From assembly GCF_010233585.1 (NCBI RefSeq), contig NZ_CP045997.1:2045237-2109236 (forward strand): 64,000 nt of DNA, read 5' to 3'. This DNA is from Spirosoma endbachense. GTDB lineage: Bacteria > Bacteroidota > Bacteroidia > Cytophagales > Spirosomataceae. Below, piece by piece: positions 25,961 to 33,598 of this stretch. The notes under the pieces were generated by a model that had not been told where the DNA came from, did no database searches, and worked only from the letters and a program-made list of their open reading frames with translations. Position 1 is the stretch's first letter, and the number at the start of each line of letters is the position of its first letter. A program made the position numbers and the translations under genes.

Positions 25961-26041
25961 TTAGTATCGATTTTCCGTTAAACGAACAAAAGATACTAAA
26001 AGAAAAACAGCCCTGCTTATCTATATTAGCTTTGTTGTATT

Positions 26042-27559
26042 CTATTCACCAACTGGCACTGAGGCTGTGGGCTGCTCCTGACGAGATCCGGCATCACTCC
26101 CTTCCAGTTTTTCACCCTTTGGCCCGCGCCGACGTTTTTTTCGGCGCTTTGGTTTATCCGTTACCTGCCCTTCAGCATGAACAGGGCGAGGCTCACCATC
26201 AACTGCGACATTCACTACCGATTCGGTTGGTGTCGCTGATCCTTCGGGGCGAGGTTTGCGCTTCTCCCGTGATCGGCGATCAGGTTGACCCTCTGCTGTT
26301 GGTCCACCTCCGTTCTCAGGTCGTTTCTGGCCATCCCGCCCTTTGCCCCGGCTTTTCCCCCGGCCAAAACCCGCTTTCCCGCGCAGTCCACTAAATCGCC
26401 GGGGATCGAACACAGGCGATTTACCCATGCCTAATTCTTCCGTGACAGACTGTTTTTCAACTTCGCGCTCAATGAGTTTTTCGATACTAACAATTCGATT
26501 CTGATCCTGATCGCTGATGAATGTAATGGCAGTACCGGTCGTTGCCGCCCGAGCTGTCCGACCAATACGGTGTACATAATCTTCGGCATCGCGGGGGATG
26601 TCGTAGTTCACTACATGCGTCAGATTATCAATATCAATACCCCGCGACAGAACATCGGTAGCGACAAGAATTGGGAAAGCTTTATTCTTGAAATCACGCA
26701 GAACGACTTCACGATCATCCTGATCGAGGTCGGAGCTAATACCACGAGCTTCGTACCCTAGTTTACTCAACGCCCGCACGATCCCATTCACTTCCGATTT
26801 TCGCGAGGTAAACAGTACCATGCTCTGCACGGGCGTTGGACTGTTTTGAATTAAATGAGCCAACAACGGCAACTTTTGATTATCGAAAGCCAGATAAAAC
26901 TGCTGATCGATACCTGCGGCTGGTTTCGAAACGGCCAGCCGGATTTCTTCTGGTTCGATTAGAATCCGGCTCGAAAACTCCCGGATTTTATTGGGCATCG
27001 TCGCTGAAAACAGCAGTGTTTGACGCTTGGTGGGCAATTTGTTAACGATATTCAGAATATCATCCGAGAAGCCCATATCGAGCATTTTATCGGCTTCATC
27101 GAGCACTAAATAGTCAATCCTATCGAAATTGACGTAGCCCAGTTGCATGTGCGCAATGAGTCGGCCCGGTGTCGCTATAATAATGTCGGCCCCTGTTTCG
27201 AGGGCTTTGCGTTGCTTATCCCAATCGTCACCTTTTCCTCCGCCATAAATAGCGATGCTATTGGCCTGAACAAAATAGCCGAATCCTTCAACCTGTTCGT
27301 CTATTTGCTTGGCCAGTTCGCGCGTAGGCACCAGAATGAGCGTACTGGTGTGGTCATGATCAGCGTGAGAGATTCGGTCGAGCAGTGGAATCAGGTAGGC
27401 CGCCGTCTTGCCGGTGCCTGTCTGCGCACTGGCGATAAGGTCACGTCCGGCGAGGATTTTGGGAATGGCCAGTTCCTGAATGGGCGTGGCCTTTAAGTAG
27501 TTCATGGCGTCCACACCGGCCAGCAGGTCGTCGTGAAGATTAAATTCCTGAAATGTCAA
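26042..27559 (-). CDS. DEAD-box ATP-dependent RNA helicase (RhlE group)
   Basis: 505 residues from an inferred TTG start at 27559 (L/M-TFQEFNLHDDLLAG), where homologues begin. A TATATTTG promoter element at 27637-27630 lies inside the longer open frame (which would itself need TTG at 27784), supporting the short form. Helicase motifs in order: Q motif PIQELAIP, Walker A AQTGTGKT (45-52), PTRELAKQ, ATPGR, DEAD, SAT, RGIDIDN, HRIGRTAR. The last ~130 residues are a disordered, basic Gly/Arg/Lys-rich tail (GFGRGKSRGKGRDGQKRP, KPKRRKKRRRGPKG) for RNA binding. Its role is likely ribosome assembly or cold adaptation. Confidence 0.85.
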   Translation of the reverse strand: MTFQEFNLHDDLLAGVDAMNYLKATPIQELAIPKILAGRDLIASAQTGTGKTAAYLIPLLDRISHADHDHTSTLILVPTRELAKQIDEQVEGFGYFVQANSIAIYGGGKGDDWDKQRKALETGADIIIATPGRLIAHMQLGYVNFDRIDYLVLDEADKMLDMGFSDDILNIVNKLPTKRQTLLFSATMPNKIREFSSRILIEPEEIRLAVSKPAAGIDQQFYLAFDNQKLPLLAHLIQNSPTPVQSMVLFTSRKSEVNGIVRALSKLGYEARGISSDLDQDDREVVLRDFKNKAFPILVATDVLSRGIDIDNLTHVVNYDIPRDAEDYVHRIGRTARAATTGTAITFISDQDQNRIVSIEKLIEREVEKQSVTEELGMGKSPVFDPRRFSGLRGKAGFGRGKSRGKGRDGQKRPENGGGPTAEGQPDRRSREKRKPRPEGSATPTESVVNVAVDGEPRPVHAEGQVTDKPKRRKKRRRGPKGEKLEGSDAGSRQEQPTASVPVGE

Positions 27560-27629
27560 GGTAACAGCTAGTGAGGGTGAAAAACCGCTGACCTTGATTT
27601 CCCGGTCAGCAAACCGCTTGATTTGGAAA

Positions 27630-27637
27630 CAAATATA
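27630..27637 (-). promoter_or_regulatory. -7 promoter element of the RNA helicase gene
   Basis: TATATTTG on the minus strand fits TAnnTTTG. It lies about 70 bases before the chosen TTG start. No TTG is found at -33, so the promoter is only half supported. The remainder of the 350-base gap up to higA contains one 44-codon open stretch directly after the higA stop (see findings). Confidence 0.4.
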
Positions 27638-27911
27638 ACGAAATGGAATGATACGAAAAACAGGTTTCGCCAAACGCCGTATGTCAATTTGATTCCTCTT
27701 CCTACCGAAAGAATTGTTTCGATCCTTTTCGGCAAATGTTTTAGTAATAGGGCAAAAACGTTTTACTAACCTGCCTCTAGTCAACTCCCTGGTCGGGGCT
27801 TTCCGTTGACTGGCATGACTTGTAAAGGTCGTTTATTGTATCAACGATGTCCTGTCGGAATCCGTTCAGGTAGCGTTCGGCAGTAGCGGACTGGACGTAT
27901 GAATCTGAAAA

Positions 27912-28283
27912 TCAGGCCATTTTCAAGATATAATCAGCTCTTATATGAAGTTTATCGTGCAAACGCTTCGCCAGGTCCATGTTTACTTTACGCTTCCCGG
28001 CCAAAACTTCAGACAGTCGTGTTTCAGTGATACCCAGTACTTTAGCCGTATCCCGTTGTTTAAGATTTTCCTGAAACATTCGTAATCGAATCATTTCCGG
28101 TAATGTGGCTGGCTCAACAGGCATAGGATAATGTTCTTCCTCATATCGCTCAGCCAGCAGCGATAGTCTCTGTAACTCAGCCAGGTCCACTTCGGTCATG
28201 GCTGCAGATCCTTTGGCCAGGTACGTTTCGATCACGGCCATCACCTGTTCGTAATCGTTTGCTGTCTCTATTGTTAAAATCAT
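27912..28283 (-). CDS. higA: HigA-type antitoxin (XRE helix-turn-helix)
   Basis: 123 residues from ATG at 28283 (MILTIETANDYEQVMAVIET). The N-terminal half is the HigA-type helix-rich region with ALQRLS-like pattern DLAELQRLSLLAERYEEEHY, and the C-terminal half is an XRE DNA-binding domain: LRMFQENLKQRDTAKVLGIT, ETRLSEVLAGKRKVNMDLAK. It follows higB by 28 bases, the reversed toxin-first order typical of HigBA. Upstream in-frame ATGs at 28340 and 28328 would overlap higB and give a longer form; family length favours 28283. It should neutralise HigB and repress the operon. Confidence 0.85.
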   Translation of the reverse strand: MILTIETANDYEQVMAVIETYLAKGSAAMTEVDLAELQRLSLLAERYEEEHYPMPVEPATLPEMIRLRMFQENLKQRDTAKVLGITETRLSEVLAGKRKVNMDLAKRLHDKLHIRADYILKMA

Positions 28284-28311
28284 AACGGATTCTTCATCAT
28301 AATACTTCTCC

Positions 28312-28605
28312 TTAAACAGACGAAGCATCTGTTTTGTCATAGTCGGCATGAGTACCAATAAATCGGATAAATACGGTTCGTACTGGAAAGATGATCCTGG
28401 CAATCAGCCGATAATGGTTCCCTTTTATGTTAAATACATAATTATCGTTGCCAACGTAATCAACTGAATTAAAGGTATTTTTGACATCACTAAAGTTGCC
28501 CCAATCGGCAGCTTTAGTTTTTAAAAACCAGTCATTGAGTGCTTCGGTCGACTGAGCGTGTGTAGATGCATATTCCCGTATTATTTTTTGGCTTACAATT
28601 ACCAT
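28312..28605 (-). CDS. higB: HigB-type mRNA interferase toxin
   Basis: 97 residues, standard length. The motifs LNDWFLKTKAADWGNFSDVK, VFNIKGNHYRLIARIIFPVR and IRFIGTHADYDKTDA are diagnostic for the HigB branch of the RelE superfamily, which cleaves mRNA on the ribosome. The basic residues of the RLIARI strand and the C-terminal HADYDK are retained, so the toxin looks intact. A GACGGC/GCCGTC inverted pair (28606-28611 and 28631-28636) just upstream may be the HigA operator. Confidence 0.88.
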   Translation of the reverse strand: MVIVSQKIIREYASTHAQSTEALNDWFLKTKAADWGNFSDVKNTFNSVDYVGNDNYVFNIKGNHYRLIARIIFPVRTVFIRFIGTHADYDKTDASSV

Positions 28606-28769
28606 GACGGCAAAAAATATTCATAAAGCCGCCGTCTTGTAACGACTTATCTGTTTATCAAAGTTACTCAAAACTTACACATTTTAAAAACTTCTTCCCA
28701 ATAACGAAATTTAACCTTTGAAATAGGCATGTTTGCTGGCAATATACTGGTAAGGCCTTTTGAAAATTC

Positions 28770-28800
28770 TTGTTCGTTTCCTTCTATCCCTATACCTTTG
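28770..28800 (+). promoter_or_regulatory. candidate his operon promoter P1
   Basis: TTG at 28770-28772, a 20-base spacer and TACCTTTG at 28793-28800 give a full Bacteroidota-type promoter. Transcription would begin within about six bases, that is at or just before the ATG of the leader peptide at 28806. Confidence 0.55.
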
Positions 28801-28805
28801 TGTCC

Positions 28806-28868
28806 ATGATTTCCCAACTGGCACCCCTTTCTTCATTTCGACATCGTCGCCATCATCACGGCTGCTAA
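28806..28868 (+). CDS. hisL: candidate histidine-operon leader peptide
   Basis: A 20-codon frame, ATG at 28806 to TAA at 28868, encoding MISQLAPLSSFRHRRHHHGC. Four of the six codons from 13 to 18 are His (CAT CGT CGC CAT CAT CAC), which is far above chance and is the mark of his attenuator leaders. It lies 184 bases upstream of hisG on the same strand and directly behind a full promoter match. By analogy with enteric hisL, ribosome stalling at these codons when charged tRNA-His is scarce would alter folding of the following RNA and allow hisG-D-C expression. Expression of the peptide is inferred; no ribosome binding site is possible if transcription starts at the ATG, so it might be leaderless. 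Confidence 0.65.
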   Translation: MISQLAPLSSFRHRRHHHGC

Positions 28869-29052
28869 GCCGCTGCTGGTCAATTCTGCGACCTATCGCC
28901 TGTTGGTCCACGGTTTTCCTTACTTTTGCCCCTTAATTCAAACATAGCCCGACACTAAAGCCGTCGGTTGCTGGTTTTAATCCCACAATCAACGAGTTAC
29001 GGATCGTATTCAGTCAATTATACTTCCTAAATCGTACATCATCCATTTAGTA
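28869..29052 (+). promoter_or_regulatory. leader region between the his leader peptide and hisG
   Basis: 184 bases that would have to contain the attenuator. GGTC (28878-28881), GACC (28890-28893) and GGTC (28905-28908) could form two mutually exclusive but short stems, CGGC/GCCG brackets the leader stop codon, and CCGAC (28949-28953) pairs with GTCGG (28963-28967) shortly before TTTT at 28975-28978. None is a strong classical terminator, so the mechanism could be translational or Rho-dependent instead. This is the main weak point of the attenuation model. Confidence 0.35.
28921..28928 (+). promoter_or_regulatory. alternative -7 element P2 upstream of hisG
   Basis: TACTTTTG fits TAnnTTTG and continues as TACTTTTGCCCC, identical to the element upstream of the CvfB gene. 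The nearest TTG (28903-28905) is 15 bases away, shorter than normal. If this is the real promoter the leader peptide would not be on the transcript. Confidence 0.3.
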
Positions 29053-29913
29053 ATGTCTTCTGTATTACGCATTGCCTTACAAAAATCCGGTCGGCTGAGC
29101 GAAGATTCGTACCAGCTTTTTAAAGAGTGCGGTATCCGTTTCGACTACGGCACTGGCAAACTCAAATCCGTTTCATCGAACTTTCCCGCAGAATTTCTAT
29201 TTCTTCGCGACGATGACATTCCCGGCTATGTCGAAGATGGTGTTGCTGACCTCGGCATCGTTGGCGAGAACGTAGCCGTTGAAACGGGCCGCCCGGTGCA
29301 GACCGTTCATAAACTGGGCTTTTCAAAGTGTCGGCTGTCAATTGCCATTCCGCGTGGTAGCGACTGGACGGGCATTCAGAGTCTGGAGGGTAAAAACATT
29401 GCAACGTCATACCCTAACCTTCTCGGCAATTACCTGGCGGGTCAGGGTGTTCGGGCAGAAATCCATGAAATCAGTGGTTCGGTCGAGATCGCGCCGAGTA
29501 TTGGTCTTGCCGAAGCCGTTTGTGATATTGTTAGTTCGGGAAGCACGCTCATGAGCAACGGCCTTAAGGAAGTCGAAACCATTTTTCGATCCGAGGCCAT
29601 TCTTATTTCCCGTTCCGAACTGGATGCCGACAAACAAGCGTTGGTCGATAAACTGTTGTTCCGGATCAAGTCGGTACAGGCCGCCAAGAATAACAAATAC
29701 ATTGTGCTGAATGCACCCAACCACGCCCTCGACCAGATTACATCCTTATTGCCGGGTATGAAAAGCCCAACCGTGACACCTCTGGCAACAGAAGGCTGGA
29801 GTTCGGTTCATTCGGTGCTGAACGAAAATGAATTCTGGGAAAATATCGAAGCCATTCGTGCCGCTGGTGCCGAAGGTATTCTGGTGATCCCAATTGAGAA
29901 AATGATCTATTAA
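29053..29913 (+). CDS. hisG: ATP phosphoribosyltransferase, long form
   Basis: 286 residues. It starts MSSVLRIALQKSGRLSEDSY, the conserved HisG N-terminus with the ATP-binding KSGRL. The PRPP-binding loop is in AEAVCDIVSSGSTLMSNGL and the C-terminal ~75 residues (from about 212, KNNKYIVLNAPNHALDQITS) form the regulatory HisG_C domain that binds histidine in the long, hexameric, HisZ-independent type. It catalyses the first step of histidine synthesis, so feedback inhibition by histidine is expected in addition to the proposed leader control. hisD follows after 86 bases. Confidence 0.95.
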   Translation: MSSVLRIALQKSGRLSEDSYQLFKECGIRFDYGTGKLKSVSSNFPAEFLFLRDDDIPGYVEDGVADLGIVGENVAVETGRPVQTVHKLGFSKCRLSIAIPRGSDWTGIQSLEGKNIATSYPNLLGNYLAGQGVRAEIHEISGSVEIAPSIGLAEAVCDIVSSGSTLMSNGLKEVETIFRSEAILISRSELDADKQALVDKLLFRIKSVQAAKNNKYIVLNAPNHALDQITSLLPGMKSPTVTPLATEGWSSVHSVLNENEFWENIEAIRAAGAEGILVIPIEKMIY

Positions 29914-29921
29914 ATAGCCTT

Positions 29922-29996
29922 AGGGTGAGAAGTGAGCATACTCCACAGTTGAAAAGTATCTACTGCGTATTGTCACTCTTCACTCCCTGCTTCTAG
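29922..29996. repeat. imperfect intergenic hairpin between hisG and hisD (GAGTGAGG-type)
   Basis: AGGGTGAGAAGTGAG on the left and CACTCTTCACTCCCT on the right form a bulged stem, with CTGCTTCTA after it. The words match the better hairpin before trpS (50658-50716). It lies within a co-directional operon, where such structures may affect mRNA stability. Confidence 0.4.
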
Positions 29997-29999
29997 CAA

Positions 30000-31289
30000 A
30001 TGAACATTATTCCTTTTCCCAAACGCACCGAATGGCCTGATTTGCTGGCCCGCCCTGTGCAGTCAACGCAGCAGATCGAAGCGGCCGTTGCTCCGATTCT
30101 GGAACAGGTACGCACTGGGGGCGATGCAGCACTGATCGAACTGGCTCAGAAGTTCGACAAGATTGACTTGTCTGCCACTGGCCTCGAAATTCCCGTTTCT
30201 GAACTCGATGCCGCTGAATCGGAATTGAGCGATGAACTGAAAGCTGCTATTCGTCAGGCATACCAGAACATTCGCACGTTTCATGAGCGGCAAAAGCAAC
30301 CGATTGAAAAAATCGAGACCATGCCGGGTGTCGTGTGCTGGCGCCGGAGCGTGGGCATTGAGAAAGTGGGCCTATATATTCCGGGAGGGACTGCTCCCCT
30401 GTTCAGCACGGTTCTTATGCTGGGTGTTCCGGCACAACTGGCCGGTTGCCGTGACGTTGTACTCTGCACACCCAGCAATAACCCTGCTATTTATTTTGCA
30501 GCCAAACTGGTCGGCGTTACGAAGGTATTCCGCATTGGTGGTGCACAAGCTATTGCAGCAATGGCCTACGGAACAGAAACTGTTCCGCAGGTTTACAAAA
30601 TCTTCGGGCCGGGCAATCAATACGTGACGGCAGCCAAGATGCTGGTCGCCAAAGAAGGGATGGCTATTGATATGCCCGCCGGACCAAGCGAAGTAGCGGT
30701 TTATGCCGACGATTCGGCAGTTCCGGCCTTCGTCGCGGCTGACCTGTTGTCTCAGGCCGAACATGGCGCTGATAGTCAGGTGCTGTTGGTTTCGACCAGC
30801 AAACGCCTTATTGAGCTTGTCAATCTGGTACTTCCTACGCAATTGAGCCGACTCTCCCGTCGCGATCTGGCGGCCAAAGCATTAGCAAACAGCAAGGCAA
30901 TTCTGGTCGATACGCAGGAAGAAGCCATTGATTTATTGAATGCTTATGCGGCTGAACACCTGATTTTAAGTATCAAAAATGCCGAGACGGTGGCGGAGCA
31001 GATTGTCAATGCCGGTTCGATTTTTCTGGGAAACTACACGCCCGAATCAGCGGGAGACTACGCATCGGGAACGAACCACACGCTGCCCACCAACGGTTTT
31101 GCGCGGGCCTACAGTGGGGTTTCACTGGATAGTTTTGTCAAGAAAATCACGGTGCAGCACATTACTCCCGAAGGATTACAGAATCTGGGACCAGTTGTCG
31201 AAGCCATGGCCGAAGCAGAATCGCTCGATGCTCATAAGCGGGCCGTAAGTTTGCGGTTGGCTAGCCTGGCAGAAATAAATCCGGTCTGA
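30000..31289 (+). CDS. hisD: histidinol dehydrogenase
   Basis: 429 residues, full length. Conserved blocks: VCWRRSVGIEKVGLYIPGGT (substrate entry), FRIGGAQAIAAMAYGTETVP, KIFGPGNQYVTAAK, DMPAGPSEVAVYAD, LLSQAEHGADSQVLLVS (zinc and catalytic Glu/His), and ASGTNHTLPT near the C-terminus with the catalytic His. It performs the last two oxidations, histidinol to histidine, using NAD and zinc. It is the second gene of the his operon. After it the operon is interrupted by a toxin-antitoxin remnant and two other genes before hisC. Confidence 0.96.
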   Translation: MNIIPFPKRTEWPDLLARPVQSTQQIEAAVAPILEQVRTGGDAALIELAQKFDKIDLSATGLEIPVSELDAAESELSDELKAAIRQAYQNIRTFHERQKQPIEKIETMPGVVCWRRSVGIEKVGLYIPGGTAPLFSTVLMLGVPAQLAGCRDVVLCTPSNNPAIYFAAKLVGVTKVFRIGGAQAIAAMAYGTETVPQVYKIFGPGNQYVTAAKMLVAKEGMAIDMPAGPSEVAVYADDSAVPAFVAADLLSQAEHGADSQVLLVSTSKRLIELVNLVLPTQLSRLSRRDLAAKALANSKAILVDTQEEAIDLLNAYAAEHLILSIKNAETVAEQIVNAGSIFLGNYTPESAGDYASGTNHTLPTNGFARAYSGVSLDSFVKKITVQHITPEGLQNLGPVVEAMAEAESLDAHKRAVSLRLASLAEINPV

Positions 31290-31320
31290 TTTAGTTATCT
31301 TGCTTAAAAACGACAAAGCT

Positions 31321-31560
31321 ATGAGTCAGTTAATCATTGAAGTAGACAGCCCTGAGGATGAAGCCCTGTTGCTGGAACTGCTCCCTCGCTCGAATGCCCG
31401 ATTGATTGAAAAAAAAACAGATTCTCCTAAACACCATTTAAAAGATGTTTTAGAGACTATTATTCAGTCAGGAGGAGTTGGAAAGTCATTCGGCGACCCT
31501 TCGGAGTGGCAACGGGAGATTCGGCACTGGGATCGGGTTCTTGATGGACGGGAAGAATGA
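31321..31560 (+). CDS. antitoxin-like protein partnering a PIN toxin
   Basis: 79 residues from ATG at 31321; the longer frame would need TTG at 31300. It is small and acidic at the N-terminus (MSQLIIEVDSPEDEALLLEL) with a C-terminal region GKSFGDPSEWQREIRHWDRV that resembles the toxin-wrapping tails of antitoxins found before PIN genes in Cytophagales. Its stop overlaps the ATG of the PIN gene (ATGA), so the two are translationally coupled. It has no recognisable DNA-binding fold that I can name. Because the toxin partner is broken, this is probably an orphan antitoxin. Confidence 0.6.
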   Translation: MSQLIIEVDSPEDEALLLELLPRSNARLIEKKTDSPKHHLKDVLETIIQSGGVGKSFGDPSEWQREIRHWDRVLDGREE

Positions 31561-31894
31561 TTTTAGACAGTAATATCATTATTTACTCGGTTAAGCCTGA
31601 ATACACTCGCTTAGCCAGATACCTTCAGACCAATCAGAACAGTGTGCGTGTTTCGCTCATTTCTACACTTGAGGTACTAGGATTTAACCGTTTAACCCAA
31701 ACTGACAAACGTACCTTCGAAGCGTATTTTGCCAGTGTAGATATACTTCCAATCAGCAGAACAAACGCTCGCTCGGTGACTCAATTATTACGGCTACAGC
31801 CCTCATTCATAACTTGCCCTTACTCACCAACAATACCATTGATTTTCAAGATATCTCTAGCTTGGAAATCATTTCGCTGACTTCCATTCTGTAA
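31557..31894 (+). pseudogene. PIN-domain toxin (VapC-like) inactivated by a frameshifting deletion
   Basis: The frame opens well: MILDSNIIIYSV with Asp4, and Glu39 in ISTLEVLGF, the first two acidic residues of a PIN nuclease, through VDILPIS. After about 31760 the true C-terminal half is in another frame: NKRSLGDSIITATALIHNLP, then LLTNNTIDFQDISSLEIISL and TSIL with stop at 31892-31894. GDS would supply the third catalytic Asp. Compared with normal PIN proteins about a dozen residues between the two parts also seem missing, so a small deletion rather than a single-base error is likely. As read, the product ends at 31880 with an unrelated tail and lacks the active site. Confidence 0.7.
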
Positions 31895-31913
31895 GTTTTC
31901 ATACAACCCGCTC

Positions 31914-33098
31914 ATGCTTGATCTTTCCGCTCTCCGCGCCGATACGCCCGGCGTTCAGCATGTCATTCACGTAAATAATGCCGGAGCAGCGCTCATGCCA
32001 AAGCCGGTTATTGACGCCATTACTGGCCACATCATGCTTGAAGCTGAACGAGGTGGGTATGAAGCGGCTGAACTGCGAAAAGAGGCCATTCAGGGATTTT
32101 ATCAGTCTACAGCTGAACTACTGAACACAACTGCCGATCACATTGCGGCCACGGCGAATGCAACGGATGCCTACTCCCGGGCATTGTCTTCGATTCCGTT
32201 TGAGCGGGGCGATGTGATAGTAACCACGATCAACGACTACGTCTCAAACCAGATAGCGTTCCTGTCGTTACAGAAGCGGTTCGGCGTTAAAGTTGTTCGG
32301 GCCGTAGATGACCCGCTGGGCGGTGTTTCGGTCAATGACATGGCGCAGAAAATAAAGACGCTACGCCCTAAACTGGTTGCCGTTACACACATTCCGACCA
32401 ATTCGGGCCTGATCCAGCCGGTAGAAGCCATTGGGCAGTTGTGCCAGGAATACGATGTGTTTTATCTGGTCGATGCCTGCCAATCAGTTGGGCAATTGCC
32501 TGTAGATGTGACCCAGATTCATTGCGATTTTCTCACTGCTACCTGCCGAAAGTTCCTGCGTGGGCCGCGTGGAATGGGATTTCTATACGTTTCCGACAAT
32601 GTATTGGCCAGCAAGCTCTCGCCTTTGTTTATTGATCTGCGCGGTGCTTCCTGGGAATCTGCCGACAAATTTACACCTGTCTCAACAGCTCAACGCTTTG
32701 AGGATTGGGAGTTTCCGTATGCCCTGGTTCTGGGGGCGGCCGAAGCCAATCGGTATGCCCTGAACATCGGACTTGGAAACATTGCCCGGCGTAATACCGA
32801 ACTAATTGAGCTGTTGTCTACTCAACTGGCAGACCTGCCAGCAGTACGACTACTGGACCAGGGCGAACGGTTGGCGAGTATACTTACGCTGGTCACGGAG
32901 CGCCGGTCGGCCGTTGAGATAAAAAATGCGCTACAGGCTGAACGCATCAATACCTCGCTCAGCCCCCGCGAAGCCGCTATTCTGGACTTCGATCATAAAG
33001 GAATGACAACGACTGCCCTGCGTATTTCGCCCCATTACTATAATACCGAAGACGAAATTCATACGCTGGTCGAAACCTTGAAACGAATTCTGGCATGA
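31914..33098 (+). CDS. class V aminotransferase (cysteine desulfurase/isopenicillin-N epimerase-like)
   Basis: 394 residues. The N-terminus VIHVNNAGAALMPKPVIDAI is typical of the SufS/epimerase branch; VTHIPTNSGLIQPVEAIGQL and YLVDACQSVGQLPVDV bring Asp187 for the pyridine nitrogen; the PLP Lys213 is in CRKFLRGPRGMGFLYVS. There is no obvious catalytic Cys loop typical of cysteine desulfurases, so an epimerase, lyase or transaminase role is more likely. The substrate is unknown. Its stop overlaps the start of the deformylase-like gene (ATGA), and both lie between hisD and hisC. Confidence 0.8.
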   Translation: MLDLSALRADTPGVQHVIHVNNAGAALMPKPVIDAITGHIMLEAERGGYEAAELRKEAIQGFYQSTAELLNTTADHIAATANATDAYSRALSSIPFERGDVIVTTINDYVSNQIAFLSLQKRFGVKVVRAVDDPLGGVSVNDMAQKIKTLRPKLVAVTHIPTNSGLIQPVEAIGQLCQEYDVFYLVDACQSVGQLPVDVTQIHCDFLTATCRKFLRGPRGMGFLYVSDNVLASKLSPLFIDLRGASWESADKFTPVSTAQRFEDWEFPYALVLGAAEANRYALNIGLGNIARRNTELIELLSTQLADLPAVRLLDQGERLASILTLVTERRSAVEIKNALQAERINTSLSPREAAILDFDHKGMTTTALRISPHYYNTEDEIHTLVETLKRILA

Positions 33099-33598
33099 AA
33101 CACCTCGCTGACCTTTTACTGTTAGGCGACCCGCGTCTGTATGAAACCTGCGAACCTGTTCTGGAGTCGGAATTGCCGCTGGTTTCAGGCTGGGTGGCTG
33201 ATTTACATACAGTAATGGAGGAAATTCGGGCTAAATATCAGTTCGGACGGGGCATTGCAGCACCGCAGTTAGGTATTATGAAACGGTTGATTTACCTGAA
33301 TGTCGATTGGCCCCAAGTCATCATTAATCCCGAATTTGTTTCGGTTAGCGCCGAAACCGATGAACTTTGGGACGATTGCATGAGTTTCCCAAACTTACTG
33401 GTTCGTGTACGCCGACACCGCAATCTTACGTTGTCGTATCGGGATGAGAACTGGCAATCGCAAGTATGGACTGTAACGGATTGGGGATTATCGGAGTTAG
33501 TTCAGCACGAATACGACCATCTGAACGGCGTCCTTTGCACAATGCGTGCCATCGACGCCCATTCATTCCGTTGGCGACCAACACCCGATACGAATTAA
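33095..33598 (+). CDS. peptide deformylase paralogue
   Basis: 167 residues. Motif I GRGIAAPQ (51-58), motif II WDDCMSFP with metal ligand Cys95, and motif III QHEYDH with His138, Glu139 and His142 are all present, so the metal site is intact. Motif II differs from the usual EGCLS (D-D-C-M-S here), as in divergent deformylase-like proteins. It could remove formyl groups from nascent proteins or act on another N-formyl compound. It is coupled to the aminotransferase by a 4-base overlap, suggesting a joint function. Whether the genome also has a canonical def cannot be seen from this window. Confidence 0.8.
   Translation: MKHLADLLLLGDPRLYETCEPVLESELPLVSGWVADLHTVMEEIRAKYQFGRGIAAPQLGIMKRLIYLNVDWPQVIINPEFVSVSAETDELWDDCMSFPNLLVRVRRHRNLTLSYRDENWQSQVWTVTDWGLSELVQHEYDHLNGVLCTMRAIDAHSFRWRPTPDTN

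Follow-up and report, generated by a model that had tools for sequence, protein, structure and literature searches.

In the hisL attenuator of enteric bacteria, a short frame with multiple His codons follows the promoter and precedes the first his gene (PMC3896937). Leader frames for other amino acids have been found to be transcribed leaderless; this applies to leuL1, leuL2, trpL1 and ilvL of Streptomyces lividans, with LeuL1 also devoid of a typical Rho-independent terminator (PMC8079986), and to trpL of Sinorhizobium meliloti, where the RNA begins directly with the leader ATG, a terminator is present and attenuation releases the sRNA rnTrpL (PMC7298713). Attenuation of linked genes, at the level of either transcription or translation, has also been proposed for small, Cys-rich upstream frames in mycobacteria (PMC4633059). 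Within the Bacteroidota, short frames occur within long 5' UTRs of B. thetaiotaomicron (PMC7366714), and in Flavobacterium psychrophilum there are reported to be "strong clues" that leader peptides attenuate amino-acid operons, together with a structured 5' element of hisG that is present in other Flavobacteriaceae genera and has no Rfam hit (PMC9723704). A term search in a superphylum study on his genes returned no word beginning with "leader" (PMC8305728).

We analyzed a 64,000-nucleotide stretch (hereafter the window) of the genome of Spirosoma endbachense (10.3 Mb, single contig), in which a His-containing leader frame precedes hisG (Table 1). This locus resembles hisL in that a short multi-His frame separates the promoter from the first his gene, but its predicted 5' UTR is 0-1 base, Arg interrupts the His codons, a second promoter box lies 3' of the leader, and neither a conserved terminator nor a conserved antiterminator was found. 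The S. lividans leaders differ from it in phylum, amino acids and promoter type, S. meliloti trpL in amino acid (tryptophan), terminator and sRNA release, and the mycobacterial frames in amino acid (cysteine); unlike the F. psychrophilum hisG element, the Spirosoma spacer shows little structure. In the literature searched, which included few subscription papers and was covered in excerpts, the nearest case was the Flavobacteriaceae hisG element, and his leaders described as leaderless or terminator-less were not encountered. Leaderless leader peptides (Streptomyces, Sinorhizobium) and a structured hisG 5' element (Flavobacteriaceae) were thus known already, whereas a leaderless, terminator-less his leader would, as far as this literature goes, be new.

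Table 1. Features of the his leader region in the S. endbachense window
Feature	Position	Strand	Remark
-33 element TTG of P1	28770..28772	+	TTG 17-23 bases 5' of the P1 box in 23/32 genus genomes
-7 box TACCTTTG of P1	28793..28800	+	predicted transcription start 28805
Leader peptide frame MISQLAPLSSFRHRRHHHGC, then stop	28806..28868	+	predicted nearly leaderless, 1-base 5' UTR
CGA-CAT (Arg-His), codons 12-13	28839..28844	+	invariant, both identical in 32/32 distinct leaders, which were found by that very motif
His codons 16-18, CAT CAT CAC	28851..28859	+	read from sequence
Spacer from leader stop to hisG, 184 bases, C > G	28869..29052	+	no terminator conserved in genus
Hairpin (-13.6 kcal/mol), then TTTCCTTACTTT	28872..28914	+	the window's one terminator-like candidate
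-7 box TACTTTTG of proposed second promoter P2	28921..28928	+	predicted start 28933
hisG, first gene 3' of leader	29053..29913	+	Pfam HisG and HisG_C
hisD, next after hisG	30000..31289	+	Pfam Histidinol_dh

An initial annotation of this DNA had described a 20-codon frame with four His codons upstream of hisG, placed right behind the promoter words TTG-N20-TACCTTTG. Frame (ATG at 28806, TAA stop at 28866-28868; His at codons 13, 16, 17 and 18) and promoter words were both recovered, in position and in letters, as described. An Rfam scan of window positions 26000-32000 yielded no match to a his-leader or T-box covariance model; the sole match up to an E-value of 1 was to a snoRNA family on the opposite strand (E = 0.65, under the gathering score). 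The closest named relatives of the hisG gene are Spirosoma sequences (loci L002-L016; 90-95% identity). As to the gene neighborhood, the interval 31300-33598, flanked by hisD and a hisC-like class I/II aminotransferase gene, has an unusual gene content for a his operon: it contains genes for a class-V aminotransferase and for a polypeptide deformylase as well as two small frames that match no Pfam family. Upstream of the leader, a HigB-like toxin gene and a gene for an HTH (antitoxin-like) protein are located divergently on the minus strand (27912-28605).

We assessed the conservation of the leader in a genus set of 36 genomes; hisG was found in 35 of these, including the genome of the window. 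The leader core, searched as CGACAT[CT]G upstream of hisG, was present in 34 of the 35 genomes and missing in G024; G030 carries the leader with a diverged promoter box. Codon analysis was performed on 32 distinct leaders with an ATG from 33 genomes (G026, in which the contig begins inside the leader, was skipped). Pooled pN/pS was 0.48 in the leader frame, whereas the other two frames gave 1.06 and 1.12; variation was greatest at third codon positions. Apart from codons 12 and 13 (see Table 1), Arg was found at position 14 and at position 15 in 31/32 distinct leaders each and His at positions 16 and 17 in 25/32 and 24/32, respectively, while position 18 is Arg in 16/32 and His in 7/32. The R-H-R-R-H-H-H ending, proposed initially as a pattern to look for in relatives, is thus not a genus rule. 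Leaders in three genomes (G012, G018 and G025) are shortened and end in FRHRR before the stop codon, and the G010 leader likewise has one His only in codons 12-18. Absence of the frame from close relatives, which had been considered as speaking against the leader, was not borne out in the genus (core in 34/35 genomes); yet among the best 80 named hisG loci, a leader was present in 33 and absent from 47 (mostly other genera). Judged from selection at the codon level, the leader is a genuine frame that evolves as coding sequence and is presumably translated; we are highly confident that it is both translated and tied to his expression. As Arg is conserved as well as His, sensing of arginine by the leader may be possible; histidine is favored over arginine as the signal because of the downstream gene and the leaders of other families.

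TAnnTTTG boxes are located at -12 to -5 in F. psychrophilum, in which leaderless mRNAs represent 5.5% of those examined (PMC9723704); this placement therefore predicts that P1 transcription in the window starts at 28805, one base 5' of the ATG. When ATG codons beginning 0 to 11 bases 3' of a TA..TT(T/C)G box were searched, the gap between box and ATG was 4 (23 genomes) or 5 bases (9 genomes) in a total of 32 of the 35 genomes, so that the A of the ATG is predicted to be +1 or +2 of the P1 RNA. A start at or near the ATG, as proposed initially, is therefore supported at the level of prediction, the predicted start in the window being one base earlier. The -33 TTG of P1 is enriched in the genus (23/32, as compared to 14% at any position). 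Ribosomes of this phylum work largely without Shine-Dalgarno pairing. Overall, the leader is probably leaderless in the cell.

The initial annotation did not mention a TAnnTTTG box downstream of the leader, which we propose to represent a second promoter, P2 (Table 1). A box of this type (TA-n-[T/G]-TTTG) begins 79 to 137 bases 5' of hisG in 34 of the 35 genomes (absent from G013), with its variable letters varying among species within the consensus, as compared to TAnnTTTG boxes by chance in 135 of 1700 shuffled spacers. The -33 TTG is at background level at P2 (4/31). Among the named hisG loci without a leader, 28 of 47 have a TAnnTTTG box at most 80 bases from hisG. A transcription start downstream of 28868 had been named as evidence against the leader; the P2 box predicts such a start, at approx. 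28933, as an additional one, and P1 with its enriched TTG stands. Internal his promoters of E. coli and Salmonella are unaffected by attenuation (PMC3896937).

To identify terminators, we used a hairpin scan in which scores of at least 11, compared with shuffled sequences, were called terminator-like. Such scores were obtained for 4 of the 35 genus genomes as compared to 58 of 700 shuffles, which is not beyond chance, and the claim that a strong textbook terminator is lacking after the leader is thus upheld at the genus level. The four genomes include the window genome, its nearest relative G004 and G024, which has no leader; G013, a near relative of the window genome, scored 0. The window hairpin, which is followed by TTTCC and was equaled by none of 20 shuffles, is common to the window genome and G004 only, and since it scores at least 11 in both, a species-level terminator is possible. 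RNAalifold analysis of 34 aligned leader-to-stop regions (the spacers downstream vary in length) yielded no conserved base pairs, and no antiterminator pairing was found by this consensus folding. A hairpin at the leader stop, GGC-UGCUAA-GCC (GAC...GUC in G034), which appeared compensatory by eye, was rejected, as it gave no conserved pair among the same 34 sequences. Of the textbook his attenuator, the His leader peptide thus fits, whereas the terminator is not conserved and the antiterminator was not found.

Folding in excess of shuffled sequences was small in Spirosoma (mean z -0.94; 4/34 below -2), both between leader and P2 (mean z -0.93; 4/33 below -2) and between P2 and hisG (mean z -1.17; 8/33 below -2), as compared to a mean z of -3.81 (29/33 below -2) in families f5, f7, f8, f16, f29 and f34, which mostly have terminators. 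C exceeded G in all 34 Spirosoma spacers (mean C 0.27, mean G 0.18), in 10 of 33 upstream control stretches, and in 12 of 33 spacers of the same six families, including 4/4 in f29, which has terminators. As 5' UTRs may be poor in G throughout this phylum, the C excess is weak evidence for Rho.

The sequences themselves show a conserved coding frame, its spacing to the P1 box, the P2 box and the absence of a conserved terminator. From these we infer both transcription starts, translation of the leader, sensing of His, involvement of Rho and a division of labor between P1 and P2, and we propose, with a little better than even confidence, that the locus is a leaderless, ribosome-mediated histidine attenuator without a conserved intrinsic terminator, gated by Rho and supplemented by P2. 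RNA polymerase would start at P1 on the AUG or one base 5' of it, and ribosomes would load straight onto the 5' end of this leaderless RNA. With ample charged His-tRNA, the leader would be read through and the ribosome released at the stop codon, and transcription from P1 would then be lost in the C-rich spacer before hisG, with Rho as the favored agent. If histidine is short, the ribosome would dwell on Arg/His codons 12-18 and transcription would reach hisG. P2, located within the spacer, would provide a basal, leader-independent his transcript. Rho is favored since the spacer is biased towards C, shows little structure and contains no conserved terminator; Rho is encoded in 7/7 genomes tested (including that of the window), and we regard its role as the off-switch as plausible, at just under an even chance. 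In attenuators of the E. coli tna type, the leader ribosome decides whether Rho reaches the polymerase; in the Spirosoma model, in which Rho is a predicted component, Rho would likewise be gated by the leader ribosome, the signal being a low rather than a high amino acid level.

This Rho-gated model has to accommodate the terminator-like hairpin in the window spacer, a P2 that would bypass the leader, the three leaders that end in FRHRR, the single His in G010 and the 47 of 80 named relatives without a leader. The hairpin could instead belong to a classical transcription attenuator, in which an intrinsic terminator that is weak, species-specific or was missed (in the window, 28872-28914) alternates with an antiterminator. 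Such a layout is found in 41 of 52 leaders of a phylum sample and at trpE of the window genome, and none of 20 shuffles equaled the window hairpin (-13.6 kcal/mol, then TTTCC); on the other hand, the genus-wide scores (4/35, against 58/700 shuffles, and with one of the four in the leader-less G024), the score of 0 in the near relative G013 and the lack of conserved pairs in the leader-to-stop region make a classical attenuator unlikely. A terminator would not be required if the ribosome on the leader altered access to the hisG start codon, with transcription not being stopped. Effects on either transcription or translation of linked genes have been proposed for the mycobacterial Cys-rich frames (PMC4633059), but a translational mechanism would have to act over the 184 bases between leader stop and hisG in the window and with little folding excess on both sides of P2 (mean z -0.93 and -1.17), and we consider it rather improbable.

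It is also conceivable that P2 is the working hisG promoter and that the unit of P1 and leader is a decaying relic, as might be suggested by the leader-less majority of named relatives (47/80), the P2 box in 34/35 genomes, the boxes close to hisG in 28/47 leader-less loci and the three shortened leaders. Decay is difficult to reconcile with purifying selection on the frame, the narrow gap of 4-5 bases between box and ATG, and a -33 TTG that is enriched at P1 and not at P2, and we judge it quite improbable. Stabilization of the mRNA by a ribosome stalled near its 5' end, with termination unaffected, has a precedent in the Firmicutes and is compatible with a leaderless leader lacking a terminator. 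This explanation suffers from the lack of RNase J: the family model reached its cut-off in 1/7 genomes, on a copy containing two stops, and the window genome gave no match at that level. We consider the explanation highly improbable.

We also investigated the frequency of His leaders in a phylum sample of 60 hisG upstream regions, in which genomes with a HisG similar to the query were overrepresented. Frames stopping before hisG with at least 3 His in 7 codons were found in 52/60 upstream regions, as compared to 224/2400 shuffles and 3/60 antisense sequences; with the threshold raised to 4 His in 7 codons before the stop, the numbers were 45/60, 13/2400 (dinucleotide shuffles) and 0/60. Ile and Ser also scored high at the latter level (32 and 24 upstream regions, respectively), probably because CAT repeats give ATC and TCA in other frames, and a few of the 52 leaders (e.g., G158 and G258) may be chance matches. 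Textbook terminators (score of at least 11, with 0/12 shuffles as good) followed 41 of the 52 leaders. A first impression of a phylum-wide leader rule was ruled out by 20 further upstream regions from six families with divergent HisG (f13, f15, f17, f35, f37 and f41), 0/20 of which had a His leader; histidine leader peptides before hisG are thus common and widespread in the phylum, but not universal. Among Runella leaders, best terminator scores ranged from 7.0 to 13.8, with at best 2/20 shuffles as good. Ten Cyclobacteriaceae leaders (L054, L065, L068, L069, L071, L072, L074, L075, L079 and L080) end in HH(F/I/M)HHSS before a stop codon that, by eye, is located in the loop of a TTCCTC...GAGGAA hairpin; terminator scores were below 11 in 10/10. 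At L036 and 11 further loci that align with it, from Dyadobacter and relatives, hisG has no leader and lies close behind an apparent other coding frame; in L036 this is a 452-aa frame that, we presume, resembles hisS.

A parallel to Spirosoma was observed in family f23 (possibly Balneolaceae), which belongs to another class of the same phylum. His-rich leaders, defined by four or more His among the final 32 codons and without a shuffle control, were found in 59 of 64 hisG upstream regions examined. In 28 of these leaders, a perfect box was located 3-11 bases 5' of an in-frame start, with a gap of 4 or 5 in 27/28 and GTG as the start in 17; 16 more had a one-mismatch box at a gap of 4 or 5 (boxes with a mismatch were searched at these two gaps only), and 15 had neither. 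Terminator scores of at least 11 were found in 2/59 (G299 and G338), and HisG of G299, 60% identical to the query, is unlike most of f23. C exceeded G in 59/59 spacers (mean C 0.25, mean G 0.07), and leader folding was somewhat more stable than that of shuffled sequences (mean z -1.91; 25/59 below -2). Among leaders with a box and a terminator score of at least 11, a 5' UTR of 0 was predicted in 1/23 (G161), and terminator-less leaders with a predicted 5' UTR were found in the f2 trio (5 bases), f4 (9 bases) and f1 (20 bases). Leaderlessness, as predicted from box positions, and a missing terminator are thus paired in two lineages (Spirosoma and f23), and because of these counterexamples neither strictly implies the other. 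We tentatively suggest, as a possibility well short of even, that in the Bacteroidota (in the broad sense) a distinct attenuator arose at least twice, in which a leaderless frame, with AUG or GUG at the very first bases of its RNA, is combined with Rho gating in a G-poor spacer in place of a terminator. Natural pairs with and without a terminator, and with and without a 5' UTR, would allow one to test how a stalled ribosome controls RNA polymerase. As a separate observation, 3/3 f23 genomes tested (G246, G194 and G178) encode a second Rho-like frame (405-426 aa, below the family cut-off) beside full-length Rho.

Other leaders were observed in the genome of the window. While thrA and ilvD showed no clear leader by eye, leuA has a frame that contains four Leu codons as well as a strong hairpin, and trpE is preceded by a trp leader, MNNSINNMIWWWHSSHWG followed by a stop codon (with WWW), and a strong terminator hairpin. 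The window genome thus seems to use a classical attenuator elsewhere, and this trp leader represents a built-in control. A predicted leaderless, Cys-containing frame (MISTNQYQSCCLLCQWQGRLCID, then stop) at L250:1501-1680 (G000:C1:2232745) is located behind TACCTTTG with a gap of 4; a strong hairpin comes next, and the plus strand has no frame of at least 80 aa until 2379. A search of the other 35 genomes of the genus, allowing up to 3 mismatches, did not recover the first 29 bases of this frame, which together with the hairpin may represent an orphan attenuator. At trpE (L177:1148-1440), the trp leader is separated from an upstream TAnnTTTG box by a tRNA-Pro(CGG) gene and may thus be co-transcribed with the tRNA.
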